Of a DNA stretch of 64,000 nucleotides, positions 37,160-63,043 are shown piece by piece. How positions within the stretch are numbered: the stretch's first letter is position 1; every line of letters begins with the position of its first letter. Under the pieces are notes generated by a model. That model saw only the letters and a program-made list of their open reading frames with translations. It was not told where the DNA came from and ran no database searches. Position numbers and translations under genes: made by a program. This DNA is from a virus. The stretch is from positions 1-64,000 of IMG/VR virus record IMGVR_UViG_3300023179_008779, one strand, 5' to 3'.

Positions 37160-37540
37160 ATGAAGATAACAGTAAACCAGCTACGTAGAATCATCAAGGA
37201 AGAAGTAAAGAGATCGTTGCTCAGAGAGATGGAAGAAGAGGCAGATGCATCCTTCGAAATTCCAGAGATCTCTGTACGTGCTGAAGGCGCAGACATGTCT
37301 GTTCATGAGTTCGTTGGCATGGTCAAGGGAATGGCAAAGAAGTACAAGTCCATCACGTTCGAACCGGCAAATGCCCTCGACAAGGGCGATGGATACTCCG
37401 CGGAGTATGATTCCCTCCTCTCCTACGGTAGCAGGTCTGAACTCAAATCTCTTGCTCGTGACCTCGATGAGGAACTCATGGGTGGTGCACAATCGATCAG
37501 TGATGAGGACAGCTTCACCAATTACGTCTATTCTGCCTAG
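37160..37540 (+). CDS. Putative head-cargo protein with N-terminal QLRRIIKEE signature
   Basis: 126 residues. The N-terminus 'MKITVNQLRRIIKEEVKRSL' is the clearest copy of a signature on eleven proteins of this window, followed by 'LREMEEEADASFEIP'. The rest ('VHEFVGMVKGMAKKYKSITF', 'SELKSLARDLDEELMGGAQS') is a small alpha/beta domain of unknown family. By analogy with T4 internal proteins, whose short N-terminal peptide targets them into the prohead and is removed by gp21, I infer that this is packaged in the head. That is not shown by the sequence alone. Function after delivery unknown. Confidence 0.72.
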   Translation: MKITVNQLRRIIKEEVKRSLLREMEEEADASFEIPEISVRAEGADMSVHEFVGMVKGMAKKYKSITFEPANALDKGDGYSAEYDSLLSYGSRSELKSLARDLDEELMGGAQSISDEDSFTNYVYSA

Positions 37541-37552
37541 AGGCAAATGAGC

Positions 37553-38038
37553 ATGAGAATCACGGTCAATCAGCTTCGCAGAATCATCAAGGAAGAAGTT
37601 CGACATGCTACGCTGAGAGAGGCTCTCGCCCCCATTGATTTCAATGTCGGTGATACCGTCCGCACGAAGAACAATCGTTATGCGGCGCCTCTCTACGGTG
37701 TGCGATCGAACGGAAGCCCAGACATGAGGGGAAAGATTGGTGAATTGTCTCCCACTGACATCGCCACGGTCGTATCCTTCGATCCCGCCGAACCCAATCA
37801 GGTGCTTCTCAAGCTTTCAGATGGCTCTGATGCATTCGTGTTGCATTATACACTTTTAGCTCCTGCTACAGGCCCAGCAAGAATTGCTCCTATTGGCAAC
37901 GAGTACTACGTCACATATTATGACAGGGTAGGCAATTCCCGCAACAAAAAAATTCTTGCAAAGGATTTAGCAGCGGCTGAGATTGAAGCTCGGCGCCAAG
38001 CCAAACGTGGCGAAGAGATCGAAATAAGCGAAATATAA
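37553..38038 (+). CDS. Putative head-cargo protein with N-terminal QLRRIIKEE signature
   Basis: 161 residues. Start taken at 37553, 9 nt after AGAGG; the ATG at 37547 leaves no room for the ribosome-binding site. The N-terminus 'MRITVNQLRRIIKEEVRHAT' nearly repeats that of the previous gene and is followed at once by 'LREALAPI', an L-x-E|A site as cut by T4-type prohead protease. The next part ('FNVGDTVRTKNNRYAAPLYG', 'GKIGELSPTDIATVVSFDPA') looks like a small SH3-like beta barrel. The C-terminus is helical. Probably a duplicate of the targeting sequence on a different cargo. Confidence 0.72.
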   Translation: MRITVNQLRRIIKEEVRHATLREALAPIDFNVGDTVRTKNNRYAAPLYGVRSNGSPDMRGKIGELSPTDIATVVSFDPAEPNQVLLKLSDGSDAFVLHYTLLAPATGPARIAPIGNEYYVTYYDRVGNSRNKKILAKDLAAAEIEARRQAKRGEEIEISEI

Positions 38039-38076
38039 TCTTCATGATGTATGAAGATTGAACAAGTGAACACTTG
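38037..38076 (+). repeat. Two small hairpins after cargo gene
   Basis: A 9-bp stem AATCTTCAT (38037-38045) / ATGAAGATT (38051-38059) overlapping the stop codon is followed by CAAGTG/CACTTG (38063-38076). There is no T-run, so they may be a weak terminator, an mRNA 3'-end stabiliser or a processing site before the primase gene. Confidence 0.45.
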
Positions 38077-38101
38077 ACTCTTCCCGTGTTACGTTTGGAC
38101 C

Positions 38102-39085: not shown

Positions 39086-39109
39086 GATCATGATATTTAG
39101 CGATCATGA
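39086..39109 (+). promoter_or_regulatory. NATANTTA box flanked by GATCATGA direct repeats
   Basis: GATATTTA (39092-39099) lies 6 nt before the ATG at 39106 and is flanked by two GATCATGA copies (39086-39093 and 39102-39109), the second spanning the start codon. Regulator binding to the repeats or a leaderless start are both possible. Confidence 0.5.
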
Positions 39110-40155
39110 AGTCACCCCGCGCTAAGAAAAGACCCCAGATCACGGAATCACAGCTACGTCGTATTGTTAGGAGTGAGATTGCGTATAGAGCACTTGTCAA
39201 CGAGGGCTTTCTAGAAAAGCTCAAGGGTGGACTAAAGAAGATCGAAGGCTCCGTCAAGAAAAAAATTGCTGAGAAATCAAAAGAAGTTCTTACCAAGCTA
39301 AAAGACGGAACTGAGAAATTAGAAATTCCCGAAGGTATGAAGGAGTTCTTAGAGCAGATACCCAAGCAAGAAGGCGGAGAATCTCTTGACAAGATAACTG
39401 CTCAAATTTCTGGGTTTAAGGAAGCCAAAGCCAAATTAGAAAAAATGGCATCTGTCGATCTATCTGCAGTGATGAGTTCAGGCGGCGGCAAGCCTAAGGC
39501 TGAGTCAATAAATCGAAGTGAACTTAACATGTTCTTCATTCTAGAAGAAGAGCGACTTGCTCAGAAAATATATGAAAATGATCTTCGGTTGGCAAGAATT
39601 TATGCTAAATCAGCAAATCTGATTAAGGAAGAGGTCGTTCTTGCTGCTCTAGCTGCTTGGTTTACTGCAATCAAGACTGTTTTTGCTGTTCTTGGTAGTT
39701 TTATTTTGGCATCTAAGTTCATGAAGTGGGTCTCAGGCAAATTGGGATTTGAAAAAGCTGAAAAGTTTTTTGAGCAATCAACTGAAGTGCTAGAAGAGTG
39801 GGAAAAAATGTTTAGAGACAAGGTCGCATTCCCACAACCGCTGCAGTATGCAGCATACAGGGCTGCCGCAGCTGCCAAGGGACTACTGGGCAAAAAAGAA
39901 GACATACTTTCATACGACGATTTTGAGGGGTCAGACGCTCAGAAGAAGGTCGGAAAAACTCTACACTTTGCAGTTTTGATAGTCGGGTTTGTTGAAGCTG
40001 CTCATGAGCTTGGCGAGCACCTGCACGAGCTCATTGAAGATTTTGCTGAGGAGACTCTGAAGCATAGTGCGGGAGCTGCTGCGGAATTTGGTAAAGAGGC
40101 AATTGAGACAGGTGGCGAAGCAGTCAAGTCTTTAGCAAAGACTGCACAGGGTTGA
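39106..40155 (+). CDS. Putative head-cargo protein with hydrophobic helices
   Basis: 349 residues. A basic extension is followed by 'ITESQLRRIVRSEIAYRA' and then 'LVNEGFLEK', which carries a V-N-E|G candidate prohead-protease site. A lysine-rich coiled region (residues 40-90) leads to two strongly hydrophobic segments near residues 180-206 ('EVVLAALAAWFTAIKTVFAV') and 285-300 ('LHFAVLIVGFVEAAHE'). The end is Ala/Glu-rich. A head protein with membrane-inserting helices could help DNA or proteins cross the host membrane, as ejection proteins do; this is inference. No known family recognised. Confidence 0.68.
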   Translation: MKSPRAKKRPQITESQLRRIVRSEIAYRALVNEGFLEKLKGGLKKIEGSVKKKIAEKSKEVLTKLKDGTEKLEIPEGMKEFLEQIPKQEGGESLDKITAQISGFKEAKAKLEKMASVDLSAVMSSGGGKPKAESINRSELNMFFILEEERLAQKIYENDLRLARIYAKSANLIKEEVVLAALAAWFTAIKTVFAVLGSFILASKFMKWVSGKLGFEKAEKFFEQSTEVLEEWEKMFRDKVAFPQPLQYAAYRAAAAAKGLLGKKEDILSYDDFEGSDAQKKVGKTLHFAVLIVGFVEAAHELGEHLHELIEDFAEETLKHSAGAAAEFGKEAIETGGEAVKSLAKTAQG

Positions 40156-45675: not shown

Positions 45676-45978
45676 ATGCCACAGATCACACTAAAGAGAC
45701 TTCAACAGATAATTCGCGAAGAGCTCAGCCTCAACGAAGGAGCAGATCATGATTCTGCTGCTAAAGTGATGAGCAGCGCAACGAAGCTTCTCAAGGCAGT
45801 CGAGTCGTTCAAATCTGCTTCATCTGAGAAAGCTCGCTCTGAGATGGGCACTCATCTGGATGAAATTGAAAAGATTCTTAACAGGGTTGTTGGATCACCC
45901 ATGCAATATGTTGATGCAACGGAACCCGCAATGAAGAAGGTTACTTTAAAACCTGCCAAGGACGAAACAACGATGTAA
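45676..45978 (+). CDS. Small putative head protein with shared N-terminal signature
   Basis: 100 residues. The N-terminus 'MPQITLKRLQQIIREELS' is a variant of the QLRRIIKEE signature, followed by 'LNEGADHD', a textbook L-x-E|G site for a gp21-type protease. The rest is one long helix ('ATKLLKAVESFKSASSEKAR') plus a short tail. Its location between terminase and portal, in the head module, supports the idea that proteins with this signature enter the prohead. It could be a small core protein comparable to T4 gp67/gp68 (inference). Confidence 0.7.
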   Translation: MPQITLKRLQQIIREELSLNEGADHDSAAKVMSSATKLLKAVESFKSASSEKARSEMGTHLDEIEKILNRVVGSPMQYVDATEPAMKKVTLKPAKDETTM

Positions 45979-46022: not shown

Positions 46023-49000
46023 ATGGCAAAGAAGAACGAAAATCTATTTCAAAAGCTTACAAAGCTCTTCAAGAGCGGACCGGTAGTAAAGAGGAAGATA
46101 CGCAACCTCGATACTACCGTTGCAGTTCCTGATCGCACAAAGAGCTCTGGTGCCCTGCTCTTCCAGAAGTCGATGGCGCCAACTTATGCTACCATCACTG
46201 CAAACGCTTATAACCTCTCTGAGCGCCTGATGAGATACCAGGACTTTGCAGAGATGGAATACACAGCTGAGATTGCATCTGCAATGGATATCTACGCGGA
46301 TGAAACTTGCGCACAAGATGATAAAGGGCGCGTCCTTCACGTCTACTCTGACAATGAAAAGGTTAGAGAGATACTTGAGGAACTTTTCTACAACACGCTC
46401 AACGTCGAGTTCAACCTCCGATCATGGGCGCGCAACCTCCCTGTCCACAAGGACACGGTGATCCCACTTCTCAACGGGACTGAGATCACGATAGAGAATC
46501 TCTCGAAAAGGATGAAGGAAGACCCAGCCTGGGTTCCGTGGGTTTACTCCGTGCAGGACGGGACACACAGGCTGGTGCCCGGCAAGGTGACCTGGTGCGG
46601 CCTCACACGGAGAGACTCGGAGCTCGTCAGGGTGTGGCTGGACGACGGGTCGTACGTCGACTGCACGCCGGATCATGAGTGGATTCTTCGCGACGGCAGC
46701 AGGAAGAAGGCCGAAGATCTCGTCACCGGTGACAGCATGATGCCCCTGTATAGGGACGTCTCCTCGAAGAAGAAAGGACATCGTCTCGAGGGATACGAGA
46801 GGACGTACGATCCTGGTACTGGAAAGTACGAGTACACGCACAGGTTGGTGTCCGAGTCCGCAGTGCCGTCTCCCGAGAACTGGCACGTTGTTCATCATGT
46901 CAACTTCGATAAGCGCAACAATGCTCCCGAAAACCTCAGGAAGATGACATGGAAGGATCACAGCCTCCTCCACATGAAGTCGTCGGATACCCTCAAGCGC
47001 CCCGACGTCGTCGAGAAGAGGATGTTAGGCATCGACAGGTGGCTCAGGTCCGAAGAACACAGGGCGGTAGCCAAAGGACAACTAAAGAAGCTTCAAGCTG
47101 CCGGACTCATGAAGACGTCGTGGTCGGAGTACAACAAGTCTTCCCTCCACACGGATCACAACGCTGTCAGGTCGAAGTCGATGAAGGCTCACTGGTCGGA
47201 CGAGGGAAAGAAGGCCCGATGGAAGGCGTCTCTAACAATAAAGTTCGATGCACGATGCATCGACATGTTAGTCGATCGCCTCGAGCGTCTAGGAAAGTAC
47301 GTCAGCCCTGTTGTCCTCGGGTCTCTCCTCAAGGAGGACGAGGAGTTCATGGCCCACTTCAGGTCGATCAACGTCGCGACGGGCAGGGACCTGACCAAGT
47401 CACTGTCGAGCCACGCCGGAATCGAGTCCCTGCTCATGAAGGTCGGAGTTAGTTCTTATATCGGCCTCGTCAAGGATAGGCTTCCCACGATCGCGTCCAC
47501 ACCATGGTTCAAGCGAGCGGAGCGGAAGAGCCTCCGGATGACCGGCAAGGCTCCTGGTATGAGGAGCCGTCGATCGTCCCGAACGAAGGAGACGTCACCC
47601 GAGCCAGCCTATATGAACCACAAGGTAGACAGGGTAGAGAGACTGAGCAGCACATCGGACGTGTATTGCATGGAGGTGCTGGGGCCGACTGGGGAGCATG
47701 ACAGACATAACTTCATGGTGCTCACACGTTTCTCCGACGGCACAACCAACCTAAATAGTGGAATTTGTTCACAAAATTGTAAGTATGGTGACATGTTCCT
47801 CTACAACGACGTCTCTCCTGATCACGGAGTGATCAATGCATTTCCCATCCCCGTCAACGAGATCGAGCGGGAGGAGAACTACGATCCGAACGATCCCATG
47901 GCCGTTCGCTATCGTTGGGTCACCCTCGGCAACCGCACCCTGGAGAACTGGGAAGTCACGCACTTCCGCCTCCTCGGCAACGACATGTTTCTCCCTTATG
48001 GATCCTCCATCATCGAACCCGCCCGACGTATCTGGCGCCAGTTGATCCTCATTGAGGATGCAATGTTAGTGTATCGTGTCGTCCGTGCCCCAGAGCGCCG
48101 CGTCTTCTATATTGACGTAGCAAACATTCCTCCTGAAAATGTGCCGATGTACGTTGAGGAACAGCGGAAGAACCTCCGCTCTTCTCAGGTAATCGACAGG
48201 ACTACCGGTCGAGTTGATCTTCGCTATAATCCCCTATCTGTAGATGAAGACTATTTCATACCTGTCCGCGGCGGTGAGAGCGGCACAAAGATTGATACGC
48301 TTGCCGGTGGTCAAAATGCTGCAGCAGTTGAGGATGTAGCGTATATCCAAAAGAAGCTATTTGCTGCTCTTAAAATTCCCAGAGCGTATCTTGGATATGA
48401 CGAGGCGCTATCGTCAAAGGCAACTCTAGCTCAAGAAGACATAAGGTTCTCGCGTACCATCAACGTCATCCAGAAGACGATCATTTCAGAGCTTAACAAG
48501 CTTGCAATCATCCATCTGTACGCTCACGGATTCGATTCTGAGGACCTACAGAATTTCACACTTCGGCTTTCGAACCCGTCGACTGTCGCACAACAGCAGA
48601 AGCTTGAGTTGTGGAGAGCAAAGTTTGAGATTGCAGGCAGCGCTCCCGAAGGTCAGGTCTCGAAGGAGTTCATCCGTAAGGAGATCTGGGGTCTCAATGA
48701 AGAGCAGTGCAAACAGCTCGATGATCAACGACTCAAAGAGAAGCTTGTCGATGGAGCAATCGAGAATGCCAAACCTGATGAGGGTGGCGGTGAGGCTGCT
48801 GGTGGCGGTGAAGAGGCTGCTGGTGGCGGTGAAGAGTCGGGTGGCGACGAGGGCGGGGGCGATGATCTCTTTTCAGGTGATGACATCTCTCAGAAAGAGC
48901 CTGGTCTTGATCTTATTACTGCAGGGGATGACCCAGGTGATGATGAAGACTTCCCGGTCAAGTTCTCTGTATCAGATATTGAAGTACCCGTCAAGGCACA

Positions 49001-49397
49001 GCGTCAACTTGATAGAGCTCTTTACAACAGGTCGAGGATCAAACACAACGGTGCATCTAAGACCCACATGCCTGATTTCTTGAAGATGACGACCCAAAGT
49101 CGTCAATCGGATAATGATCCATATGATAGTGACTGGGTTTCTTCATATGTTCGTAATCCGTTCGGTGAATCGGTAGAGAGACGCACTGAGGTCTATAAGA
49201 CTCCCATCAGCAATGACGTTATCTCAGCGTTGAGGATGATGAGCCTGTCTAAGAAATTCCAGAACCTACCGCAACAAGGTCAGCCTGATGCCCCTGCTTC
49301 ACAAGTCTTGAATGAATCTATAGAAGAAGCAGATGCAAAAGAATTCAAGGAAGTATACGTGATAGATGAAGACGACGATCGGAGTGACGAAACATGA
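46023..49397 (+). CDS. 20: Portal protein (T4 gp20-like), interrupted in frame by an intein
   Basis: 1124 residues including a 446-residue intein (140-585); the spliced protein would be about 678 residues. N-extein: 'YATITANAYNLSERLMRYQD' and 'LRSWARNL'. C-extein: 'CKYGDMFLYNDVSPDHGVIN', 'RRIWRQLILIEDAMLVYRVV', 'APERRVFYIDVANIPPENV' and 'AYLGYDEALSSKATLAQED', all typical of gp20-family portals. The dodecameric portal starts prohead assembly and is the packaging motor's channel. The C-terminal region has a glycine/glutamate-rich repeat (residues about 922-950) before an acidic tail, unlike T4. The stop overlaps the next ATG by 4 nt. Confidence 0.94.
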   Translation: MAKKNENLFQKLTKLFKSGPVVKRKIRNLDTTVAVPDRTKSSGALLFQKSMAPTYATITANAYNLSERLMRYQDFAEMEYTAEIASAMDIYADETCAQDDKGRVLHVYSDNEKVREILEELFYNTLNVEFNLRSWARNLPVHKDTVIPLLNGTEITIENLSKRMKEDPAWVPWVYSVQDGTHRLVPGKVTWCGLTRRDSELVRVWLDDGSYVDCTPDHEWILRDGSRKKAEDLVTGDSMMPLYRDVSSKKKGHRLEGYERTYDPGTGKYEYTHRLVSESAVPSPENWHVVHHVNFDKRNNAPENLRKMTWKDHSLLHMKSSDTLKRPDVVEKRMLGIDRWLRSEEHRAVAKGQLKKLQAAGLMKTSWSEYNKSSLHTDHNAVRSKSMKAHWSDEGKKARWKASLTIKFDARCIDMLVDRLERLGKYVSPVVLGSLLKEDEEFMAHFRSINVATGRDLTKSLSSHAGIESLLMKVGVSSYIGLVKDRLPTIASTPWFKRAERKSLRMTGKAPGMRSRRSSRTKETSPEPAYMNHKVDRVERLSSTSDVYCMEVLGPTGEHDRHNFMVLTRFSDGTTNLNSGICSQNCKYGDMFLYNDVSPDHGVINAFPIPVNEIEREENYDPNDPMAVRYRWVTLGNRTLENWEVTHFRLLGNDMFLPYGSSIIEPARRIWRQLILIEDAMLVYRVVRAPERRVFYIDVANIPPENVPMYVEEQRKNLRSSQVIDRTTGRVDLRYNPLSVDEDYFIPVRGGESGTKIDTLAGGQNAAAVEDVAYIQKKLFAALKIPRAYLGYDEALSSKATLAQEDIRFSRTINVIQKTIISELNKLAIIHLYAHGFDSEDLQNFTLRLSNPSTVAQQQKLELWRAKFEIAGSAPEGQVSKEFIRKEIWGLNEEQCKQLDDQRLKEKLVDGAIENAKPDEGGGEAAGGGEEAAGGGEESGGDEGGGDDLFSGDDISQKEPGLDLITAGDDPGDDEDFPVKFSVSDIEVPVKAQRQLDRALYNRSRIKHNGASKTHMPDFLKMTTQSRQSDNDPYDSDWVSSYVRNPFGESVERRTEVYKTPISNDVISALRMMSLSKKFQNLPQQGQPDAPASQVLNESIEEADAKEFKEVYVIDEDDDRSDET
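46440..47777 (+). mobile_element. Portal intein, class-3-like, with HNH homing endonuclease
   Basis: 446 residues inserted between portal Leu139 and Cys586 ('ARNL' | 'CKYGD'). It begins with Pro, not Cys/Ser. Block B is 'DCTPDHEW' (intein Thr76, His79, Trp81 = His+2), block F is 'DVYCMEVL' with Cys410 in the position normally held by Asp, and block G is 'SGICSQN' followed by Cys+1. Trp in B and Cys in F are two of the three marks of class 3 inteins; the third, Thr in G, is Ser here. An HNH-type nuclease lies at intein residues about 147-178 ('WHVVHHVNFDKRNNAPENL', 'WKDHSLLH'). Codon use is richer in C/G-ending triplets than in most of the portal. Confidence 0.88.
48781..48866 (+). repeat. Gly/Glu-rich short repeats in portal C-terminal region
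   Basis: GGTGGCGGTGAG-type units recur three to four times, coding for G-G-G-E-x-A-A-G-like linkers. They probably form a flexible acidic linker and are prone to slippage-driven length change. Confidence 0.7.
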
Positions 49398-50248: not shown

Positions 50249-50252
50249 TACA

Positions 50253-50867: not shown

Positions 50868-51286
50868 GAACGACAAAGACTGAATTAAAGCAACTCATCA
50901 AAGAGTGTCTTGTGGAGATATTGGCAGAGGGACTTGGGCCAACTCTGCAAAATGAGGTAAAGTCACCTAGGTTATCAACAAACACATTTTCTAATAAACC
51001 CTCGACACCATCTCGTGTTCCCGAGCCCCGCCGTCCGACTCCTGCATTACGTGAGGCCATCCGCCGGGAGGCAGGCGGCAACAAGGTCATGGAGTCGATC
51101 TTTGCTGACACCGCTGCGACTACACTCGCAAGTCAATTAGCGAATGGAGACGTATCGCCGACTTCGACATCCAAGCAATTAGTCCAGCAGGAGCAGATCA
51201 GCGGTACACCTGAGCAGATATTCGGCGAAGAGGCTACCTCAAAGTGGGCAAACTTAGCTTTTATGGATTCGCCTACAAAGAAATGA
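50864..51286 (+). CDS. Small putative head/core protein with shared N-terminal signature
   Basis: 140 residues. The N-terminus 'MRTTKTELKQLIKECLVE' is a divergent member of the signature family, followed by 'ILAEGLGPTL', a clear L-x-E|G protease site. The middle is proline-rich and disordered ('PSTPSRVPEPRRPTPALREA'), with a second site L-R-E|A. The C-terminus 'SKWANLAFMDSPTKK' recalls the R-W-x-x-L-A-G-I ends of the scaffold (52153) and the ParB-like protein (62063). Translational coupling to the protease and these sites mark it as a likely prohead core protein that is cut during maturation. Confidence 0.7.
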   Translation: MRTTKTELKQLIKECLVEILAEGLGPTLQNEVKSPRLSTNTFSNKPSTPSRVPEPRRPTPALREAIRREAGGNKVMESIFADTAATTLASQLANGDVSPTSTSKQLVQQEQISGTPEQIFGEEATSKWANLAFMDSPTKK

Positions 51287-51311: not shown

Positions 51312-51338
51312 CCGGGTAGACCCCCAGTGAGGATTACA

Positions 51339-51572
51339 ATGAGACTAACAAACAGATTGCTACGTAGAATCATCGAAGAAGAAGTTGCCAAGTTTGGTGA
51401 CATGCAGGATGTCGAGAAGGTCAAGGCCGACGAGACTGATGCAGACGAGTATGCAGATGCACTCGAGAAGAAGATTGATTACATGAAGGCACTCAAGGTT
51501 GAGGAGTCACGTCTTCGTCGCCGTATAGCAAAGATCAATGAGACCCGTCGTCGTCTAACACGCGGTCTATGA
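51339..51572 (+). CDS. Small helical protein with shared N-terminal signature
   Basis: 77 residues from the ATG at 51339, which follows GAGGA; a GTG at 51327 is less suited. The N-terminus 'MRLTNRLLRRIIEEEVAKFG' matches the L-R-R-I-I-x-E-E core of the signature. The rest is helix: 'DEYADALEKKIDYMKALKVE' and 'RLRRRIAKINETRRRLTRGL'. No clear L-x-E|A/G site follows, so it may not be trimmed. It sits among head genes between the protease and the scaffold. Function unknown; a small core protein is possible. Confidence 0.65.
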   Translation: MRLTNRLLRRIIEEEVAKFGDMQDVEKVKADETDADEYADALEKKIDYMKALKVEESRLRRRIAKINETRRRLTRGL

Positions 51573-52152: not shown

Positions 52153-54156
52153 ATGACTAAGCAACTGTATGAAGAAGCACTAGCAGACGTCAAGAAGCTC
52201 AAGGAGGTCGCCGAGGACAATGCCAAACGAGCTCTGCTCGAGGCAGTGACTCCTCGTATCAAGGATCTCATCGAGAATCAGCTTCTCAACAAAGAGATTG
52301 CTGTTGACGACGATAATCTCTTGATGGATGAGATTCCCGTTGATGCATCACCTGGCTTCGGCGATGCTGATGCAGCTGCTGATGCAATCTCCCTTCCCGA
52401 CGAGGAAGGTAAGGTGACTCTTGATCTTGACGCTCTCAAGGTTCCGGGTGCAGATGAGTATGAACTCAGCATGGAATCTGCTCGCTCACTGGGTCTATTA
52501 CAGACCGAAGGTAGCAACTTTGAGCGTAAGTTAGCATTTATACAGCGTAAGATAAAGCTGTTTGAATCGACGGGCAAGTTAGTCCGTGAGTCAAAGGGCT
52601 TTAATACTACTGTGAAGTCAACTATTTCTGAAGTGGAGCATATGTATTTCCACTTGCAGGACAAAATGAAGGACTCCAAGCTCAAGGGCAAATACGAGTC
52701 CATTCTAGAAAATTATTACTCAACCCTAAATGAGCTCACGGAGCAGAACATGAGAAGAAGGAATCTTTCTGAAGCAGACGTTACACTCAAGCTAACTGGC
52801 CTACCTGACGAGATCGATCTCGACTCTGTCGGCGTCGACCTTATCACTGGTGAAGGTGGTGAGGAAGGCGAAGGCGACGAAGAGGGTGGTGACGAAGACC
52901 TCGACCTCGGCGGTGAAGAGGGCGAAGATGAGGGTTCCGAAGAGGGCGCCGATGAAGACCTCGATCTCGGCGGCGACGAGGGCGAAGATGAGGGTTCCGA
53001 AGAGGAATCAGAAGAAGGAAGCCAGATGGAATCACGTAAGTTAAGCAATAATCTCGTTGTAGAGATCGATGAGAACATGCTCCGTAGAGAGATCAAGCGT
53101 ATGCGTACTCTTCGTGAAGCCGACGAGACGAAGCCACAGTCCTGGGGTCACGGCGCCGGCGAGGTTGCCGATGGTTTCGAGGACGACGACATGGGTGATC
53201 CATTTGTCGACATCGATCTCCGTGAGGATCAGGACAGAGATCAGGCGGACGAGGATCAGGACAACATGGACGAGCAGGAGGACGGTACTCTTACAATGGA
53301 TGAGGCCGATGGCATGGATCAGGACAACATGGACGAGCAGGAGGACGGTACTCTTACAATGGATGAGGCCGATGGCATGGATCAGGACGATGACGATCTT
53401 GATGAGCAGCAGATGGACCAGATGGATCAGGCCGAAGACACCATGCAATACGGCGGCCGTAAGGGTCGTCCCGGTGAGCAGTCCAACAAGCAGTCACGCC
53501 AGCCTGGCCAGACCGTAGAGTCTATCCGGCGCCGCCTCGCAGCTGAGGCTCGTCTGCAGCTTGAGGCCAAGAAGAAGGCCCAACAGGCAAAGAAGATGCA
53601 GGGCAAGAAGCAGCAGGAAGCCCAGCAGCAGGCCAAGAAGGGCCAGAAGAAGGGCGCCCAGCAGAAGAAGGCTCAGGCCAAGCAGATGCAGGAGGCCTAT
53701 AACTTCTACGCACGTAAGTTCAACGAGTCGGTGCGCCGCAGCCGCCGTCTCCAGGGTATGCTCACAGAGGCATCCCGTAACGGTCGCACCCTCAATGGTG
53801 CACCAGCAAGGTCCGCGGCAGAGACCTCAACACTCCGCAATAAGTTGGCAGAGACGAATCTGTTCAACGCGAAGCTACTATTCACGAACAAACTCCTCCA
53901 GAATGAGTCACTCACCAAGCGCCAGAAGGCCGAGGTAATCGAGCGTCTCGACGAGGCAAAGTCTGAGCGTGAAGTGAAGCTCGTGTACGAGAGCCTAGTG
54001 AAGACCCTGTCGAACAACGGCCGTTCATCGGTGAACGAGTCGGTAAACCGCGGTGTCATGGGCTCATCAAGCCGCCCACAGACCTCAGCAGCTGCCACCC
54101 TCAACGAGGGCATCGAGGCAGACCGCTGGGCACGCCTGGCCGGCATCGTGAAGTGA
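52153..54156 (+). CDS. Acidic prohead core scaffold protein (T4 gp22-like)
   Basis: 667 residues, between the protease and the major capsid as in T4. It is highly charged: a helical N-terminus, an Asp/Glu-rich centre (residues about 235-430), a Lys/Gln-rich helix ('QQAKKMQGKKQQEAQQQAKK') and a helical C-terminus ending 'DRWARLAGIVK'. L-x-E|A/G protease sites are scattered throughout: 'LLEAVTP', 'LSEADVT', 'LREADET', 'LTEASRN', 'LNEGIEA'. T4 gp22 is likewise cut to small peptides by gp21 and leaves the head. At over twice the size of T4 gp22 (269 aa), its growth is partly explained by the tandem repeats at 52891 and 53254. Confidence 0.82.
   Translation: MTKQLYEEALADVKKLKEVAEDNAKRALLEAVTPRIKDLIENQLLNKEIAVDDDNLLMDEIPVDASPGFGDADAAADAISLPDEEGKVTLDLDALKVPGADEYELSMESARSLGLLQTEGSNFERKLAFIQRKIKLFESTGKLVRESKGFNTTVKSTISEVEHMYFHLQDKMKDSKLKGKYESILENYYSTLNELTEQNMRRRNLSEADVTLKLTGLPDEIDLDSVGVDLITGEGGEEGEGDEEGGDEDLDLGGEEGEDEGSEEGADEDLDLGGDEGEDEGSEEESEEGSQMESRKLSNNLVVEIDENMLRREIKRMRTLREADETKPQSWGHGAGEVADGFEDDDMGDPFVDIDLREDQDRDQADEDQDNMDEQEDGTLTMDEADGMDQDNMDEQEDGTLTMDEADGMDQDDDDLDEQQMDQMDQAEDTMQYGGRKGRPGEQSNKQSRQPGQTVESIRRRLAAEARLQLEAKKKAQQAKKMQGKKQQEAQQQAKKGQKKGAQQKKAQAKQMQEAYNFYARKFNESVRRSRRLQGMLTEASRNGRTLNGAPARSAAETSTLRNKLAETNLFNAKLLFTNKLLQNESLTKRQKAEVIERLDEAKSEREVKLVYESLVKTLSNNGRSSVNESVNRGVMGSSSRPQTSAAATLNEGIEADRWARLAGIVK
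52891..53010 (+). repeat. 60-bp tandem repeat in scaffold gene (acidic)
   Basis: Two units with an exact 60-nt period (52891-52950 and 52951-53010, the second diverging at its end) code for E-D-L-D-L-G-G-(E/D)-E-G-E-D-E-G-S-E-E. GGCGAAGATGAGGGTTCCGA is identical in both (52921 and 52981). This is an in-frame duplication of an acidic 20-residue module. Confidence 0.85.
53254..53379 (+). repeat. 63-bp perfect tandem repeat in scaffold gene
   Basis: Two identical 63-nt units, 53254-53316 and 53317-53379, code twice for the 21-residue module D-Q-D-N-M-D-E-Q-E-D-G-T-L-T-M-D-E-A-D-G-M; a third partial copy begins at 53380. Identity at the DNA level points to a recent duplication. Confidence 0.92.
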
Positions 54157-54186: not shown

Positions 54187-56037
54187 ATGAAGTATTTTAG
54201 TCTAGATCATCTTGCCGCAGGTATCCGCGACAAGCACGTCGGCGCCGAACGCGCCAGACTCACGGAGAAGTGGTCCCGCACGGGTCTTCTCCGCGGCCTC
54301 GACGGCACCCGCCGTGAGACCATGGCCCAGCTCCTGGAGAACCAGGCAGCACAGGTCCTCAAGGAGAACTCTGCTCTGTCCACCGGCGGTGGTAACCTCG
54401 CCGGCTCCGGTCAGCTCCAGGGCTTCAGCAACATCGCCTTCCCGATCGTCCGCAGGGTGTTCGGCGGCCTCGTTGCCAATGAGCTCGTCTCGATCCAGCC
54501 AATGAGCCTCCCCTCTGGCCTCATCTTCTACCTCGACTACACCTACGGCACGAACGTCGGTACGCCAGCAGGCGGCTCCGGTTCGACCTACACCAAGGGT
54601 CAGTCGGTCTATAACAACCCAACCGGCAAGGGCGTCCAGTCGGGCTCACTCGCAACCGGTGGTATGTACGACCTCGTCAACACGGGCTACTCCCGCGTTA
54701 CGGGTTCTGCCACGGGCCTCACGGTCACGGCGTTCGGTTCTTGGGGCGGCGCAAACGCAACGTCCTGGGTCAACGGCCAGCTCCTGACCTCGGACACGGA
54801 CTTCTCCGGTTCGAACGCCCGCTTCGCAGACTTCGACTCGCAGGTCCAGACCGCACTCGCAAACGATGACCTTGATGCAGCATTCGCAGTCATCCCGCTC
54901 TCTTCCCTCACCAACATGGACAAGCTCGCATTCAACCAGCTCTCCGTGTTTGCCGGCACGTTCGCAAACTGCACGGCATGGGGCGAGACCTACCAGGGTG
55001 GCACGGGCGTCCTCAACCTCCGCCGCCTCAACAAGCGCGGTAACTGGTCGGCCGGCGTATTCACCCCCGATGCACTGAACGGTACCCACGTCCTAACGCT
55101 CGTCAAGGGCGCAAACAACGCGGCAATCTCCGGCACAGTCGCCAGTGTCGCATACTCGATCTCCACGTCCCTCTCGGTCGACGGCAACGTTGGTTCGACC
55201 ATCACGGTCCCATCGTTCGAGTCTGACTTCTCGACCAACCCATCCCCCGCAATCCCCGAGATCGACATCAAGATCGAGGCAATCTCGATCACGGCCGAGA
55301 CCCGGAAGCTGCGTGCAAGGTGGAGCCCCGAGCTCGCACAGGACCTCAACGCGTACCACAGCATGGACGCCGAGGTCGAGCTCACCTCGATCCTCTCCGA
55401 GCAGATTGCTCTCGAGATCGACCGCGAGATCCTCAACGACCTCGTCTCCCAGGCAAACGGCGCCAACTACTACTGGAGCCGCAGCCCAGGCCGCTTCGTG
55501 GACAAGGTCACCGGCGCACGCCAGAACATGTCGAACTCGTTCCAGATCGGTCCGCAGTTCACCGGTACTGTCCGTGAGTGGTACGAGACCCTCATCGAGA
55601 CCGTCATCGACGTGGCAAACACCATCCACCGCAAGACCCTCCGCGGCTCCGCGAACTTCATGGTCACGGGCCCAGACGTCTGCACCATCCTCGAGGCTTC
55701 GGTTCTCTACAAGCCCAAGTTCTCGATCGACGGTGAGGGCCAGGTCGCCTCTCCCTTCACAGTGGGCGCCGAGGCAATCGGCACGATCAGCAACCGCTTC
55801 ACGGTCTACAAGGATCCTTACTTCAGCCGTAACAAGATCCTCGTGGGCTACAAGGGCGGCAGCTACCTCGAGACCGGCTACGTATACGCACCATACGTGC
55901 CGCTCATCGTGACGCCAACAATCTTCGCACCTGAAGATTTCACACCCCGCAAGGGCGTAATGACCCGGTACGGGAAGCGTACTGTCCGTAGCGATTTTTA
56001 CGGGACCGTCACCGTGCTCGACATGAACGTGATATAG
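54187..56037 (+). CDS. 23: Major capsid protein (T4 gp23-like)
   Basis: 616 residues with a TAGGAG site. 'MAQLLENQAAQVLKENSAL' matches the delta-domain end of gp23, with V-L-K-E|N as the likely but atypical cleavage point. Then come 'FSNIAFPIVRRVFGGLVANE', 'SIQPMSLPSGLIFYLDYTYG', 'RKLRARWSPELAQDLNAYHS' and the C-terminal 'TPTIFAPEDFTPRKGVMTRY', all canonical HK97-fold gp23 segments. It is about 95 residues longer than T4 gp23. The extra length probably lies in the Gly/Ser/Thr-rich region around 130-350, which may carry an added surface domain. Codon use is extremely biased to C-ending triplets, as for a very highly expressed gene. An intrinsic terminator follows. Confidence 0.95.
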   Translation: MKYFSLDHLAAGIRDKHVGAERARLTEKWSRTGLLRGLDGTRRETMAQLLENQAAQVLKENSALSTGGGNLAGSGQLQGFSNIAFPIVRRVFGGLVANELVSIQPMSLPSGLIFYLDYTYGTNVGTPAGGSGSTYTKGQSVYNNPTGKGVQSGSLATGGMYDLVNTGYSRVTGSATGLTVTAFGSWGGANATSWVNGQLLTSDTDFSGSNARFADFDSQVQTALANDDLDAAFAVIPLSSLTNMDKLAFNQLSVFAGTFANCTAWGETYQGGTGVLNLRRLNKRGNWSAGVFTPDALNGTHVLTLVKGANNAAISGTVASVAYSISTSLSVDGNVGSTITVPSFESDFSTNPSPAIPEIDIKIEAISITAETRKLRARWSPELAQDLNAYHSMDAEVELTSILSEQIALEIDREILNDLVSQANGANYYWSRSPGRFVDKVTGARQNMSNSFQIGPQFTGTVREWYETLIETVIDVANTIHRKTLRGSANFMVTGPDVCTILEASVLYKPKFSIDGEGQVASPFTVGAEAIGTISNRFTVYKDPYFSRNKILVGYKGGSYLETGYVYAPYVPLIVTPTIFAPEDFTPRKGVMTRYGKRTVRSDFYGTVTVLDMNVI

Positions 56038-58679: not shown

Positions 58680-59345
58680 ATGAAGATCACAGTTCGTCAA
58701 CTTCGCAGAGTCATCTCAGAAGAAGCCAAGCGCGTCTTCGAGGCGGCGAACACCGTCAAAGACGCGCTCTCGGACAAACTCGCCCTCGCCGTCGTCGCCG
58801 GCGATCCAAAGTCCTTCATACTGTACGATCCAGAGCTGCTGATCAAGATAATCGAGGCGGACGAGGACGACGACAGCAGGGCATACAAGGCCATATACGC
58901 CGTGGTCATGGTGAATCGAGACAAAGAGGCTCCTCAGTGGGGTGCGAAGACTGTCAACGCCACTGCTGCCCGTGACGGATACGGACCGCTTCTCTACGAC
59001 ATTGCGATGGACGAATGTGGGGGTCTCGTGTCAGATAGGTCGTCTGTGTCTCCCCGGGCCAAGGCGGTCTGGAGATTCTACAGGGACAATCGGGAAGACG
59101 TGGTCAAGAAGCCCCTCGATGACATGGAAGATCCAAAGACTCCAACCAAAAAAGACGACACCGAAGAGTTACATCCCGGTGGCGCAAAGAACCCGTTGAA
59201 CTACGCGTATTTCATCAATGGCGGTCCCAACACTTCGCGCTTAAAAGCTAACCATGCTGCTTATGCGAAGCAGTTCCGAAGGCTGGGCATCACTCAAGAT
59301 CGACTGAGTTGGATTGCTCAGGAATTCTTCGATCGAAACTACTGA
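58680..59345 (+). CDS. Putative head-cargo protein, GNAT-like core
   Basis: 221 residues; the start at 58680 places 'MKITVRQLRRVISEEAKR' at the N-terminus, followed at once by 'VFEAANTV', a candidate V-x-E|A protease site. The body has strands 'SFILYDPELLIKII' and 'KAIYAVVMVNRDKEA', then 'ARDGYGPLLYDIAMDE', which resembles the acetyl-CoA-binding R-x-x-G-x-G/A loop and helix of GNAT acetyltransferases, and 'VSDRSSVSPRAKAVWRFYRD'. A GNAT assignment is tentative. If right, this would be an acetyltransferase packed in the head and delivered to the host. Confidence 0.68.
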   Translation: MKITVRQLRRVISEEAKRVFEAANTVKDALSDKLALAVVAGDPKSFILYDPELLIKIIEADEDDDSRAYKAIYAVVMVNRDKEAPQWGAKTVNATAARDGYGPLLYDIAMDECGGLVSDRSSVSPRAKAVWRFYRDNREDVVKKPLDDMEDPKTPTKKDDTEELHPGGAKNPLNYAYFINGGPNTSRLKANHAAYAKQFRRLGITQDRLSWIAQEFFDRNY

Positions 59346-59376: not shown

Positions 59377-59889
59377 ATGAAGATCCGTCTATCCCAACTC
59401 CGTTCCATCATCCGCCAGACCATCCTCACCGAAGAGAAGGATCGCAAGCTCAAGAGTGCCTGGTGGATCACACCGACCGGCGTACCCGAGGAGTTCGCCG
59501 AGGGCTACTACCACACGGACATCGGCACCATGTGGGCTCTCGGTGAATACACCGACGAGGAGACCAAGAAGCTCGCCTACGATACCGACCCTGACGAACC
59601 CGACTACGAACCCGACGAATACTCCTCTATAGACCACGAAAAGATGGAGACCGACATGATGAAGACCAAGGGCTTCGCCAAGGCCCGCCTGTGGAAAAAC
59701 GGCCGCCTCACGCTGGGCGCCTGGACCGTCACCGACGAGCACCTGGCGGGCCTCAAGTCGATTGCGGCCTCGTCCGGCCTCCGGGGCGATGCTCCCGTTG
59801 AGATCTCACAGGAGTCTCCCGGAAAGGCCGTGCAGCTCACCGTCAATGACGTCAGGCGGGCATATTCCGCTGCTGATTTAGACTGGTGA
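59377..59889 (+). CDS. Putative head-cargo protein with shared N-terminal signature
   Basis: 170 residues from the ATG at 59377. The N-terminus 'MKIRLSQLRSIIRQTI' is followed by 'LTEEKDRKLKS', a near-match to a protease site (L-T-E|E). The body begins 'AWWITPTGVPEEFAEGYYHT' and contains an acidic loop ('YDTDPDEPDYEPDEYSS') and 'ARLWKNGRLTLGAWTVTDEH'. Family not recognised. C/G-ending codons dominate, as in its neighbours to the right. The nearly identical first 15 codons in this and the next gene suggest spread of the N-terminal module by duplication or recombination. Confidence 0.68.
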   Translation: MKIRLSQLRSIIRQTILTEEKDRKLKSAWWITPTGVPEEFAEGYYHTDIGTMWALGEYTDEETKKLAYDTDPDEPDYEPDEYSSIDHEKMETDMMKTKGFAKARLWKNGRLTLGAWTVTDEHLAGLKSIAASSGLRGDAPVEISQESPGKAVQLTVNDVRRAYSAADLDW

Positions 59890-59923: not shown

Positions 59924-60886
59924 ATGAAGATCCGTCTGTCCCAACTCCGCCACCTCATCCGCGAGGCGATCGTCTCCGAGATCTCCCGCTCCACCCCTGA
60001 GTTCGCAGAGGGCACCAAAAAGTTCGACGACATCACCCCGTTCGGCCACTATGGGGTCCTCCGTCCGCCCCAGACTGAAGAGGAGCGGGCGTTCGATGCC
60101 GAGTTCGTGGACTTCGCCGTGAAGAAGTTCGATGAGGTGTTCAAGACCGGCGGCTTCTACACGGCGAAGTTCCTCTCCCGCGGCCAGAAGGGGTTGCTCG
60201 TCCTGTGCGCCGACGACTACATCGACGAGGCATTCGGCGGGGACGTGGTCCACGCTCTGCTCCACGAGTCCACCATGAAGGGTGCCCACCAGCGCTTCAA
60301 GTTCCAAGGCCGTGATCCGGACCGTCCTGAGATGAACGACAACCTGTATGAGATCCTCGTGTACTGGGTGCAGTCGGGCATGGACCAGGCGAAGAGGGTG
60401 GGCGCCGACAACTCCAACATTGCTGTCTCGATCGCGCATCGTCTCCCCGCGCAGCCCAAGCCGACCCTTGAGGTCGTGAAGGACTTCTTCAACCGCTACG
60501 GCTCGCAGTTCGAGGAGAGCCTCATCGACCAGTACTTCCCCGACATGATCGACGAGCTGGGCGGCAATGAACCCGGTGCCCTGCCCCGCAACGTGCAGGA
60601 GGAGTGGCTCGCCGCGATGGACAACACGGTGGGCCGCATGGGACACGAGGGACGAGAGGGCAGGACCACGGCCCAAGCCTTCATCAACGAGGTGCTCCGC
60701 CGATTCATGAAGACTATGGGCGGTGATCCTTCTCTCGGCAAGGGCGCACGGAAGGACTATACCTCAGAGTCCCATGCCGGGGCACTGATGGCGTGGTACA
60801 ACCAGCTCCGCCTCAAGACCCAGGTCCTGTCCAAGAAGTACGGGATCGAGCTCACCGCGGTCCGCAGAAAGTTTGATAAGAAATGA
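59924..60886 (+). CDS. Putative head-cargo protein with shared N-terminal signature
   Basis: 320 residues. The N-terminus 'MKIRLSQLRHLIREAIVSE' is followed by 'PEFAEGTKKF', a possible F-x-E|G cut. The middle has 'KGLLVLCADDYIDEAFGGDV', 'HALLHESTMKGAHQRFKF' and 'ILVYWVQSGMDQAKRVGADN', a mixed alpha/beta domain I cannot place. The C-terminus is helical ('AFINEVLRRFMKTMGG', 'LKTQVLSKKYGIELTAVRRK'). The stop overlaps the next ATG (ATGA), so it is co-translated with the ADP-ribosyltransferase-like gene. It might be an accessory or immunity-type partner, but could equally be an independent cargo. Confidence 0.68.
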   Translation: MKIRLSQLRHLIREAIVSEISRSTPEFAEGTKKFDDITPFGHYGVLRPPQTEEERAFDAEFVDFAVKKFDEVFKTGGFYTAKFLSRGQKGLLVLCADDYIDEAFGGDVVHALLHESTMKGAHQRFKFQGRDPDRPEMNDNLYEILVYWVQSGMDQAKRVGADNSNIAVSIAHRLPAQPKPTLEVVKDFFNRYGSQFEESLIDQYFPDMIDELGGNEPGALPRNVQEEWLAAMDNTVGRMGHEGREGRTTAQAFINEVLRRFMKTMGGDPSLGKGARKDYTSESHAGALMAWYNQLRLKTQVLSKKYGIELTAVRRKFDKK

Positions 60887-61287
60887 AGCTAAGAATCTCC
60901 GACCTCCGTCACATCATCCGAGAGGTGCTGGAGGAGCAGGGTCTCACGTTCTACCACGGCACTCTGAAGGATGCTGTCCCATCCATATTGAGGACAGGCC
61001 TCCGTGCTGGACAGGGTTGGGGCGGCGCCGCCAAGCCGGGCGTCTTCTTGTCGACATCACCTGACTCTGCCTTATACTGGGCGAAGATGTCCTTCCTTAC
61101 CCGGCACGGCCTACCAGCAGAGGAGTCTTCCTTCGATCGGGTGGACCCGTCGCAGCTCGTCGTCCTGCGGGTCGATGTTCCGCCCGAAGAGAGGTCCAAC
61201 ATCGTGCCGCGGCAGAGGAGCTACAACCTCGCAGGAGACTCTCAGTACGTGGGAAGCGTCCCGCCTGGGTGGATAAGCGTCCTATAG
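60883..61287 (+). CDS. ADP-ribosyltransferase-fold protein with head-targeting signature (Alt-like candidate)
   Basis: 134 residues. The N-terminus 'MKLRISDLRHIIREVLEE' is the shared signature. Directly after it comes an ART/Tpt1-like fold: 'LTFYHGTLKDAVPSILRTGL' (His25, first NAD-binding residue), 'KPGVFLSTSPDSALYWAK' (Phe55 where Tyr/Phe is expected; S-T-S strand) and, at the C-terminus, 'DSQYVGSVPPGWISVL', where Gln121 sits at the place of the usual catalytic Glu. T4 packages Alt, an ADP-ribosyltransferase, in its head and injects it to modify host RNA polymerase. This much smaller protein could have a similar role (inference). An RNA-phosphotransferase-like activity is the main alternative. 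Confidence 0.72.
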   Translation: MKLRISDLRHIIREVLEEQGLTFYHGTLKDAVPSILRTGLRAGQGWGGAAKPGVFLSTSPDSALYWAKMSFLTRHGLPAEESSFDRVDPSQLVVLRVDVPPEERSNIVPRQRSYNLAGDSQYVGSVPPGWISVL

Positions 61288-61299: not shown

Positions 61300-61307
61300 T
61301 ATAGTTA
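61300..61307 (+). promoter_or_regulatory. Promoter-like TATAGTTA before flavoprotein gene
   Basis: An exact NATANTTA match 6 nt before an ATG at 61314. That ATG opens a short ORF of 8 codons (M-I-D-Q-E-L-K-S) whose stop overlaps the TTG start of the next gene as TTGA. Confidence 0.5.
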
Positions 61308-61313
61308 TTATCC

Positions 61314-61340
61314 ATGATCGATCAGGAGTTGAAGTCTTGA
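61314..61340 (+). CDS. Possible 8-codon leader ORF coupled to the flavoprotein gene
   Basis: ATG at 61314, TGA at 61338-61340. It lies 6 nt after a promoter-like box, contains the AGGAG that serves the next gene, and ends in a TTGA overlap with that gene's start. It could be a leaderless coupling ORF or chance. Confidence 0.3.
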   Translation: MIDQELKS

Positions 61341-61999
61341 AGGTGCTGCTGGTCTCCACCACGACCAACGAACGACGGTCGTCCTCCCGTGCTGCGCTGG
61401 CGCTGGTCGAGCGAGCGCTGGAAGGCCGCGGCCACGAGGTGAAGGTGATCGACGCCAACAAGATACACATCGTCAAGAATCTTTCCTGCTACGCGGACGG
61501 CGGCGAGCAGTGCGGTGACCCAGAGTCCGGTCCCTATCGATGCTGGGCACACAAGCACGCGGAAGAGGAGCCCGACAAGTACGGCGGCAAGGATGAGATG
61601 CCGCAGATCTATGACGGTCTGGCCTGGGCTGAAGCCGTTATCTTTGCCACCTCCGTGCGGTGGGGCAGCCACTCAGCCCTCCTCCAGACGATAATTGAGA
61701 GGATGAACACGCTGGAGAACCGCCACACAGTCTACGGTGAGCCCAACCCCCTGTGGGGCAAGAGGTGCGGCGTCGTGGTGACCGGTCAGCACTGGAAGGC
61801 TTCCGAGGTGGCCAACCGCCTCATCGAGGTGTTCGACCTCTACGGCTTCCACACATCACCCTCCGCGGTGCTCTCGTGGCAGCACGTGTCCGACATGGAC
61901 GAGGAGCTAGAGGACAACAACGTCGATCCATTCCGCCGCGAGATGCGTGAGGAGCGGTGGCTCCCAGTACTCAATCTGCTCCGCGCTCTGGATCTGTGA
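61337..61999 (+). CDS. NADPH-dependent FMN reductase / flavodoxin-fold protein
   Basis: 220 residues with a TTG start 8 nt after AGGAG; a GTG at 61343 is an alternative. The N-terminal strand 'KVLLVSTTTNERRSSSRAAL' has the phosphate-binding T/S-x-T/N-x-x-R/S loop of NADPH-dependent FMN reductases. 'AEAVIFATSVRWGSHSALLQ' is the second flavin loop (P/T-x-x-W-G-S-x-x-A), and 'GKRCGVVVTGQHWKASEVAN' follows. A Cys trio ('LSCYADGGEQCGDPESGPYR' and 'CWAHK') recalls iron-sulfur flavoproteins but is not a clear cluster motif. It would reduce flavins, quinones or nitro compounds with NAD(P)H. It lacks the head-targeting signature, so it likely acts in the infected cell. Confidence 0.82.
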   Translation: MKVLLVSTTTNERRSSSRAALALVERALEGRGHEVKVIDANKIHIVKNLSCYADGGEQCGDPESGPYRCWAHKHAEEEPDKYGGKDEMPQIYDGLAWAEAVIFATSVRWGSHSALLQTIIERMNTLENRHTVYGEPNPLWGKRCGVVVTGQHWKASEVANRLIEVFDLYGFHTSPSAVLSWQHVSDMDEELEDNNVDPFRREMREERWLPVLNLLRALDL

Positions 62000-62010
62000 T
62001 CACGTGATTT

Positions 62011-62018
62011 TATATTTG
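62011..62018 (+). promoter_or_regulatory. Promoter-like TATATTTG before ParB-like gene
   Basis: A NATANTTA-like box between TGTGATCA and TGGATCACA, which form an inverted repeat around it. The ATG at 62063 has its own CGGAG site, so this promoter would give a leader of about 40 nt. A second A/T-rich run (TATATAAACTATAGATA) lies at 62033-62049. Confidence 0.45.
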
Positions 62019-62062
62019 TGGATCACACACCATATATAAACTATAGATAACGGAGATTTTTC

Positions 62063-63043
62063 ATGAGAAAGAACCTGAATGAGAGTCGCTTGCGTAGCAT
62101 CCTTCGTGACGCTGCCAGATCTGCCTTGAAAGAGAATAGACGCCGCCGCATGTTTGAGGATGCAGATCCCAGCAAGATCGATTCGGATAAGTTTCCCAAC
62201 AAGCTGAGCGCCGTCGATCGCTCCACCGCGAAGCAGCTCGCCTCGGGAGGCCTCGAGGACAACGATAAGAAGGACGACATCGCGGGGGCGGAGAAGGTTT
62301 CCCTCGCCGCCGCGGCCCTGAAGGCCTCGCAGACCACGATGGACTTCGGTAAGTTCGTGGGCATGGCGATTCAGATGATGGGCAAGCTGGGCAGCTTCTC
62401 AAGCGGCGCCGGGGGAGACCTCGGGGCGATCATATCGTCCGACAATCACATCATGGACGGTCACCATCGCTGGGCCGCCACGCTCATGGTGGATCCCAAG
62501 GCCAACGTCGGGGGCCTGAAGGTTCAGCTCCCGGGCGAGAAGCTGGTGGGCGTCCTCAACGTCTGGACCGTCGCCCACGGCGGCGCCGGCAAGCCCTCCG
62601 ACACGGACCTTGCCTCTCTCACGAGCGACTCCGTCGCGGAGAAGTTTAAGGAGATGGCCTCGAAGGGCGGCAAGTTCCTTCCGTCCCCCGAGGAGATGCT
62701 GTCGGCCTTCAAGAAGTCGGGATTCGACTCCCTCGACGCCGCGGCCGCCCACGTCAAGAAGAACTGGGACGCCACGTCCAAGGCGCGCGCCGTCCTGGGA
62801 TGGATGCCCGCCAAGGTCGACATGCCCGCCATCGAGCCCGATCAGCTGCCACAGGTGGCGTCGGACATTGCCTCCGGCAAGATGGACATCAATCCGCCTT
62901 ACGCCGCGGACACAAAGGGTCAGGCGAAGGCCTCTTCGTCGGAGAAGGGGAGCGAGGCCTCCGTACAGAAGTCCGGATTCGACCGCGGCGGCGCCGTGAT
63001 GGTGGAGCGCTGGCAGCGCCTCGCCGGTATCATCAAGGGTTGA
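62063..63043 (+). CDS. ParB-like domain protein with head-targeting-type N- and C-terminal motifs
   Basis: 326 residues. The N-terminus 'RKNLNESRLRSILRDAARSA' is a variant of the shared signature, followed by 'RMFEDADPSK' (M-F-E|D). The core has 'LGAIISSDNHIMDGHHRWAA', the D-G-H-H-R motif of ParB/sulfiredoxin-fold proteins, which bind nucleotides (CTPase or nuclease activity in relatives). The C-terminus 'GAVMVERWQRLAGIIKG' closely matches the end of the scaffold protein ('DRWARLAGIVK'). Having both end motifs makes it the best candidate for a cargo that docks on the scaffold. A role on DNA in the head or in the host is possible. Confidence 0.78.
   Translation: MRKNLNESRLRSILRDAARSALKENRRRRMFEDADPSKIDSDKFPNKLSAVDRSTAKQLASGGLEDNDKKDDIAGAEKVSLAAAALKASQTTMDFGKFVGMAIQMMGKLGSFSSGAGGDLGAIISSDNHIMDGHHRWAATLMVDPKANVGGLKVQLPGEKLVGVLNVWTVAHGGAGKPSDTDLASLTSDSVAEKFKEMASKGGKFLPSPEEMLSAFKKSGFDSLDAAAAHVKKNWDATSKARAVLGWMPAKVDMPAIEPDQLPQVASDIASGKMDINPPYAADTKGQAKASSSEKGSEASVQKSGFDRGGAVMVERWQRLAGIIKG

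Follow-up and report, generated by a model that had tools for sequence, protein, structure and literature searches.

The internal proteins IPI-IPIII and Alt of phage T4 carry an N-terminal capsid-targeting sequence (CTS) that is cut by gp21; in IPIII, ten N-terminal residues are enough to bring the protein into the head and are removed by gp21 (PMC9026906). In the giant phages phiKZ and SPN3US, the head propeptides are mostly longer than 100 residues and have A/S-x-E sites, and the protease is a diverged T4-type enzyme (PMC5694885). The N-terminal signal of DarB from phage P1 is sufficient to load a reporter into heads, and no consensus emerged among the Dar proteins (PMC9024508). Beyond T4, the giant phages and P1, we found no shared-tag cargo systems in the open literature.

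The DNA analysed here (the window) is a 64 kb stretch of a 69,249-base virus record. Eleven of its genes, all on the + strand between 37160 and 63043, encode proteins with a common basic amphipathic N-terminal peptide of consensus K-I-T-x-x-Q-L-R-R-I-I-x-E-E, hereafter tag A. All of them had been listed in a first-pass annotation of the window, and each reading frame exists with the peptide at its N-terminus. In the following, genes are named by the first coordinate of the tag and an arrow marks a cut:

37160 to 37228, + strand: tag A of gene 37160-37540, predicted cut LRE↓M
37553 to 37621, + strand: tag A of gene 37547/37553-38038, predicted cut LRE↓A
39106 to 39204, + strand: tag A, core about 10 residues in, of gene 39106-40155, predicted cut VNE↓G
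45676 to 45738, + strand: tag A of gene 45676-45978, between terminase and portal, predicted cut LNE↓G
50864 to 50929, + strand: divergent tag A of gene 50864-51286, directly after the protease, predicted cut LAE↓G
51339 to 51404, + strand: tag A of gene 51327/51339-51572, without an LxE site
58680 to 58742, + strand: tag A of gene 58680-59345, putative GNAT-like body, predicted cut VFE↓A
59377 to 59433, + strand: tag A of gene 59377-59889, predicted cut LTE↓E
59924 to 59980, + strand: tag A of gene 59924-60886, predicted cut VSE↓I
60883 to 60936, + strand: tag A of gene 60883-61287, body starting GLTFYHGT, predicted cut LEE↓Q
62063 to 62134, + strand: divergent tag A of gene 62063-63043, predicted cut LKE↓N

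The reading frame of 37553 has a further ATG at 37547, and that of 51339 a GTG at 51327; in 39106, the tag begins about 10 residues inside the protein.

We give a probability of about 0.8 to the reading that tag A is a capsid-targeting propeptide like that of the T4 internal proteins, which would load its carriers into the head and then be cut off, the bodies being ejected. A modular head-cargo system with a tag unlike that of T4 had been proposed from the first look at the window. This proposal draws its support from the enrichment of gp21-type sites and the end of conservation at the tag boundary, co-occurrence with the protease, selection at the level of the peptide, tag exchange and a scaffold tail found on cargo.

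As with the T4 CTS, a short N-terminal peptide is common to unrelated proteins (428 non-redundant bodies). It ends, except in the 51339 family, at a gp21-type L/I-x-E site, with a predicted cut after Glu, and an S77 protease and a cleavable scaffold are both encoded; affinity for the core followed by removal would be a further likeness. Tag A differs from the CTS in sequence and is longer, at about 18-24 residues, whereas 10 are enough in IPIII. Further differences are the existence of a second tag type, the number of tagged genes (up to ~40, some of them in tandem arrays) and a scaffold-tail motif on some cargo; the second type, tag B, resembles the CTS only loosely. Among the T4 head genes read, a set outside which the internal-protein genes fall, the tag profile finds no N-terminal tag, and homology of tag A to the CTS, which the mechanism does not call for, was not seen in this comparison. 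As in phiKZ and SPN3US, where inner head proteins are many, the N-terminal propeptides are predicted to be removed after Glu. In contrast to those long propeptides with A/S-x-E sites, the tags are short (18-24 residues), follow one consensus and end in L/I/V/M-x-E, with L/I/V/M at P3. The signal is N-terminal as in P1 DarB and would likewise load proteins into heads, but here one consensus is common to hundreds of proteins. The closest named relatives of the protease belong to Flavobacterium phage immuto and Microcystis phage Mel-JY01, whose scaffold tails are of the same kind as here (RWQKLAGIIK and RMKKLAGIVK, respectively). Phage immuto has one tag-A-like gene (L226:6532), and the head-module regions read in these two phages hold no tag arrays.

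With leave-one-out profiles run on 667 ORF segments of the window, nine of the eleven tagged genes rank first among non-training segments, while 62063 ranks 4th and 50864 56th. The tags of these two are weak alone in the window and clear in relatives: the 50864 family has the N-terminus MKITKSELKSIVKECLVEILxEG, with tag-profile scores of up to 22 bits, and 62063 has relatives in L017 and G004. The bodies had been described as unrelated, and no pair of them in the window gives a BLASTP match at E < 0.1. The tag is present in 41 of 57 homologous ORFs of 45676, 73 of 75 homologues of 50864 and all 74 of 51339. Tag and LREM of 37160 are unchanged in three relatives, the homologue of 59924 in L065 is also tagged, and the 20-residue tag of 60883 recurs, 75-80% identical, on unrelated bodies in L283-L288.

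A T4-type head module spans about 44-56 kb of the window:

44004 (start): terminase
46023 to 49397, + strand: T4-type portal gp20, split by an HNH intein
50226 to 50867, + strand: gp21-type prohead protease (Peptidase S77), PF03420; phrog_207, 2.4e-49
52153 to 54156, + strand: prohead core scaffold with many LxE sites, in excess over shuffles in relatives
54187 to 56037, + strand: T4-type major capsid protein gp23; phrog_138, 1.5e-71
54358 to 54366, + strand: predicted gp23 maturation site LKE↓N; relatives have LKE↓S/A or LRE↓A/S

The PF03420 domain (50346-50768) scores 86 bits against a curated cut-off of 27, and scaffold LxE sites exceed shuffles with z of 3-5 in 12 relatives; both the gp21-type protease and the site-rich scaffold recognised at first sight are thereby confirmed. 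Across major capsid proteins, VLKE↓[SAN] is kept at the expected maturation position.

The first-pass annotation had placed L/V-x-E↓A/G sites behind five of the tags (37553, 39106, 45676, 50864 and 58680). All five are present and the [LIVM]xE part of the rule holds, but its P1' restriction proved too narrow. When P1' is left free, [LIV]xE lies directly after the tag in 10 of the 11 window genes, 51339 being the one without; the added sites are LRE↓M (37160), LTE↓E (59377), VSE↓I (59924), LEE↓Q (60883) and LKE↓N (62063). Relatives of 39106 have LEE↓G, VQE↓G and IEE↓G. As P1' is loose, any single site is weak evidence. Over the 428 non-redundant tagged bodies, [LIVM]xE occurs at tag offsets 14-23 in 73%, compared with 17% for a control stretch (Fisher p about 3e-64), and 27%, the 51339 family among them, have none at the expected place. 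For loci found via the protease alone and not by the tag, the counts are 29/37 for the site and 3/37 for the control (p = 7e-10). The hydrophobic-x-Glu spacing reaches z = 22.5 versus within-segment shuffles; spacings 1 and 4-6 are depleted, and hydrophobic residues are enriched three positions ahead of Glu as well (z = 12), an effect that we ascribe to the frequency of LLxE. The information content of the tag drops to background directly after the Glu. Q, S, N, A, G and M are enriched at P1', a preference that correlates with P1' after scaffold LxE (rho 0.48, p 0.04) and shows no correlation with scaffold LxD, LxK, LxA or other ORFs.

Binding to membranes or nucleic acid is also within the reach of a basic amphipathic helix, and the peptide might target another site in the cell (membrane, replication compartment or host partner), LxE being merely where the helix ends. 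We consider such targeting very unlikely; among the points against it, the specific L-x-E spacing goes beyond helix composition and the tag P1' matches that of scaffold sites.

Another account of the shared 5' ends invokes a nucleotide-level feature, such as a translation start cassette or a recombination hot spot, the peptide having no role; tandem arrays with the same start sequence do suggest gene shuffling near the start codon. Yet third positions of the tag A codons vary while the residues are fixed, and upstream of tagged start codons only the ribosome site is conserved. Synonymous variation, with conservation ending at the start codon, indicates selection on the tag peptide; it largely refutes the nucleotide-level explanation, which we reject as extremely improbable.

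Tag A extends well beyond the window. The neighbourhoods of 80 closely related proteases hold ~175 tag-profile matches; with few exceptions, these lie at N-termini and share the strand of the protease. In IMG/VR, 115 stretches match a degenerate DNA pattern of tag A; in bacterial and archaeal genomes totalling 257 billion bases, it gives only six matches, and an S77 protease is present in two of the four cellular genomes that hold them. One of these cellular contigs is 101,404 bases long, as is one IMG/VR phage contig. Contigs of 180, 278, 284 and 201 kb contain 14, 24, 38 and 43 tagged ORFs, respectively. Five small tagged genes and an S77 protease are present in LR756508, a named huge phage of 484 kb; it is the only one found among named phages by short-peptide tblastn, a search whose low sensitivity keeps it from proving absence elsewhere. 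No tag was found in two cyanophage head regions.

PF03420 is present in all 14 tag-A IMG/VR contigs of 142 kb or more, in 24 of the 47 tag-A contigs overall, and in none of 16 control contigs drawn with a random 16-mer, a small set of shorter contigs. The protease-negative tagged contigs look like genome fragments, as they lack both portal and terminase: the T4 portal was found in none of the 23, the window terminase has no match in the twelve tested, and Terminase_6N gives nothing above cut-off in the sixteen tested. Wide occurrence of the tag in phages without a gp21-type protease had been named beforehand as an observation that would speak against a head-cargo system; we met no counter-example, the 14 largest contigs all being positive. 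This tight linkage to the S77 protease also counts against targeting to another cell site. The large arrays are a point in favour of such targeting: in contigs G019, G008 and G032, tandem runs of small genes starting MKITKRQLRRIIKEEKARLxxE are distant from head genes, and arrays of this kind could serve something else. The 22 distinct in-frame double tags were considered as polyproteins and discarded, their E[GS]K linkers probably being ribosome sites read through.

Tag B, M[KN]LLREYIRELLxE↓, is present in the same genomes as tag A. It stands on 46 non-redundant proteins, 44 of them with the LxE site, in runs of 5-8 genes; a few of the 46 are probably chance matches, the pattern being loose. 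A strict DNA pattern of tag B matches 30 stretches in IMG/VR, and all four new tag-B contigs of 119 kb or more carry the protease. Homologues of 58680 start with M[KRN]xLREYIRELLxE↓[SA] in place of tag A, and fourteen tag-B proteins have bodies homologous to tag-A proteins (for example, 68% identity over 187 residues and 74% over 54). The alignments of these bodies begin close to the tag boundary, near the LxE site. In the 58680 family alignment, one body bears tag A, tag B or a third N-terminus ending in LKE↓A. Among the genomic evidence for the N-terminal peptide being a module with a single function, we rate this exchange highest. Two different tags on the same bodies, both ending in LxE, argue once more against LxE as a simple helix end.

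Some cargo resembles the scaffold at the C-terminus and, perhaps, the tag resembles an internal scaffold segment:

53065 to 53121, + strand: conserved scaffold segment IDENMLRREIKRMRTLRE↓A, layout as tag A, statistically uneven
54124 to 54153, + strand: scaffold C-terminal tail RWARLAGIVK, similar in Mel-JY01 and immuto
51242 to 51283, + strand: scaffold-tail-like C-terminal tail KWANLAFMD of the 50864 protein, similar in G004, G019 and G032
63008 to 63040, + strand: scaffold-type C-terminal tail RWQRLAGIIKG on the 62063 cargo

Nearly every scaffold among the relatives terminates in RW[AQ][RK]LAGI[VI]K. The tail occurs on 62063-type cargo, including the L017 and G004 proteins that also bear tag A, and the 50864 family carries the variant KWAxLAF. 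From these motifs we infer that the tail may be a second way for cargo to bind the prohead; its presence on tagged cargo is a further point against a destination elsewhere in the cell. The scaffold segment, I[DS]xxMLRR[EN][IL]x...LRE↓, is conserved and has the same layout as tag A. That the tag mimics this segment (IDENMLRREI...LRE↓A in the window) is only suggestive: shuffle tests of the resemblance are mixed, not significant in all lineages, and the tag profile does not detect scaffolds, which score below zero.

It is conceivable that the tagged proteins are prohead-core parts, lost or destroyed at maturation, with the tag as a core-assembly helix and no loading of effectors. The two most conserved tagged families, 50864 and 51339, adjoin protease and scaffold in almost all relatives, a placement that resembles small T4 core proteins, and the 50864 protein ends in a scaffold-like tail. 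But the tagged bodies are for the most part variable and in some cases contain enzyme domains (YkuD, AAA_33/HAD, PAP2, DUF192, GNAT-like), and up to 43 different bodies per genome exceed the needs of a core, so that we consider this account unlikely.

Pfam gives few matches for 129 tag-A proteins: YkuD, HAD_SAK_1/tRNA ligase CPD, AAA_33, PAP2 and DUF5824. For 53 tag-B proteins, they are DUF192, DUF2608, YunG and a sub-cut-off ART-PolyVal match. AlphaFold predicts a confident body for the 58680 family (mean pLDDT 83), the N-terminal helix being less certain. Its viral structural neighbours include phage proteins with an NAT_SF domain (best named E 1.9e-4), and on this ground the body is probably acetyltransferase-like; in the PDB, the model has no significant structural match, and its weak matches are largely to acetyltransferases. 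The HGT...GL...FLSTS layout of 60883 suggests an ADP-ribosyltransferase-like fold, but neither Pfam nor searches of PDB sequences and phages support it; single-sequence AlphaFold of 60883 has a pLDDT of 40. Candidate activities of the cargo are acetyltransferase, ADP-ribosyltransferase-like, RNA-repair kinase/phosphatase and L,D-transpeptidase.

Under the capsid-targeting reading, tagged proteins would be made with an N-terminal basic amphipathic helix by which they attach to the prohead core during its assembly, the scaffold being the likeliest partner, and bodies of any fold would be trapped inside. Some cargo would additionally use a copy of the scaffold C-terminal tail RWxxLAGI[VI]K. Within the closed prohead, the active S77 protease would cut after [LIVM]-x-E at the tag end, as it would inside the scaffold and at the start of the mature capsid protein. 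The released bodies would remain in the head, probably be ejected with the DNA and act in the host. The sequences themselves show the tag, its site, the conservation boundary, the co-occurrence with the protease, the tag exchange and the common tail; the binding partner of the tag and the packaging, cutting and ejection of tagged proteins are all inferred by analogy with T4.

The principle is known from T4; the tag sequences, the two exchangeable tags, the arrays of dozens of genes and the borrowed scaffold tail appear to be new. We found none of these four in the literature (open papers), and a text search for QLRRII, LRRIIREE and LRRIIKEE found no paper. We lean towards a broader view, held less firmly than the capsid-targeting reading itself, in which a large group of uncultured T4-like phages uses a general head-loading code made of two interchangeable propeptides and a borrowed scaffold tail, with up to ~40-50 different effectors per phage, some of them encoded in tandem arrays. 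To our knowledge, such a repertoire would exceed any known capsid-delivered one. Should the reading prove correct, the many unknown genes of these aquatic phages could be sorted by a 15-residue signature that tells which of them have products that travel in the virion and are delivered when infection starts, and hundreds of orphan genes would become candidate injected effectors or counter-defence proteins. Capsid targeting would also become testable outside T4, with new tags for loading proteins into phage heads.

A second N-terminal tag, M[KN]LLREYIRELLxE (tag B, read as a capsid-targeting propeptide cut after its final glutamate), is found at the N-termini of proteins encoded in gene runs of related genomes. 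It is loosely similar to the capsid-targeting sequence (CTS) of T4. The runs lie in the following contigs or loci:

G008, 56-63 kb (reverse-complement): tag B gene run
G019, 82-89 kb: tag B gene run
G032, 102-107 kb: tag B gene run
L276 and L100: tag B gene runs

Some open frames, among them L188 (frame 2282), G019 (153284-154948), L100 (frame 5749) and roughly 20 more, hold two tags with no intervening stop. They represent either fused cargo or overlapping genes with a read-through ribosome site. In the Flavobacterium phage immuto, a motif resembling the C-terminal tail of the prohead scaffold, RRMQKLAGIITE, is located close to the N-terminus of a protein (L226:5019-5483), not at its C-terminus.

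The portal gene of the window is interrupted by an intein:

46023-49397: portal gene, split by an HNH intein with NL before it and CKYGD after it

The portal intein looks like a class 3-type element, devoid of the usual N-terminal nucleophile, because its predicted first residue would be Pro and its block F reads VYCMEV. In the 484 kb phage LR756508, a single 576-aa open frame (LR756508.1, 156507-158102) holds the gp21-type S77 prohead protease as two separate profile halves, which suggests an intein in that gene as well.

Other genes of the window include:

716-13960, minus strand: sugar-nucleotide, glycosyltransferase and aminotransferase-like block (translations judged by eye)
61337-61999: NADPH-dependent FMN reductase/flavodoxin-like gene (PF03358, 1.3e-15)

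The former spans about 13 kb, oriented opposite to the structural genes; the latter is untagged and lies within the tagged gene run.

Contigs of 101,404 bases occur in both collections (PBIO01000025.1, with loci L277 and L279, and IMGVR_UViG_2788500220_000014). PBIO01000025.1 carries several tags and is binned in a Halobacteriovorax MAG, which is either a hint of the host or a binning error.
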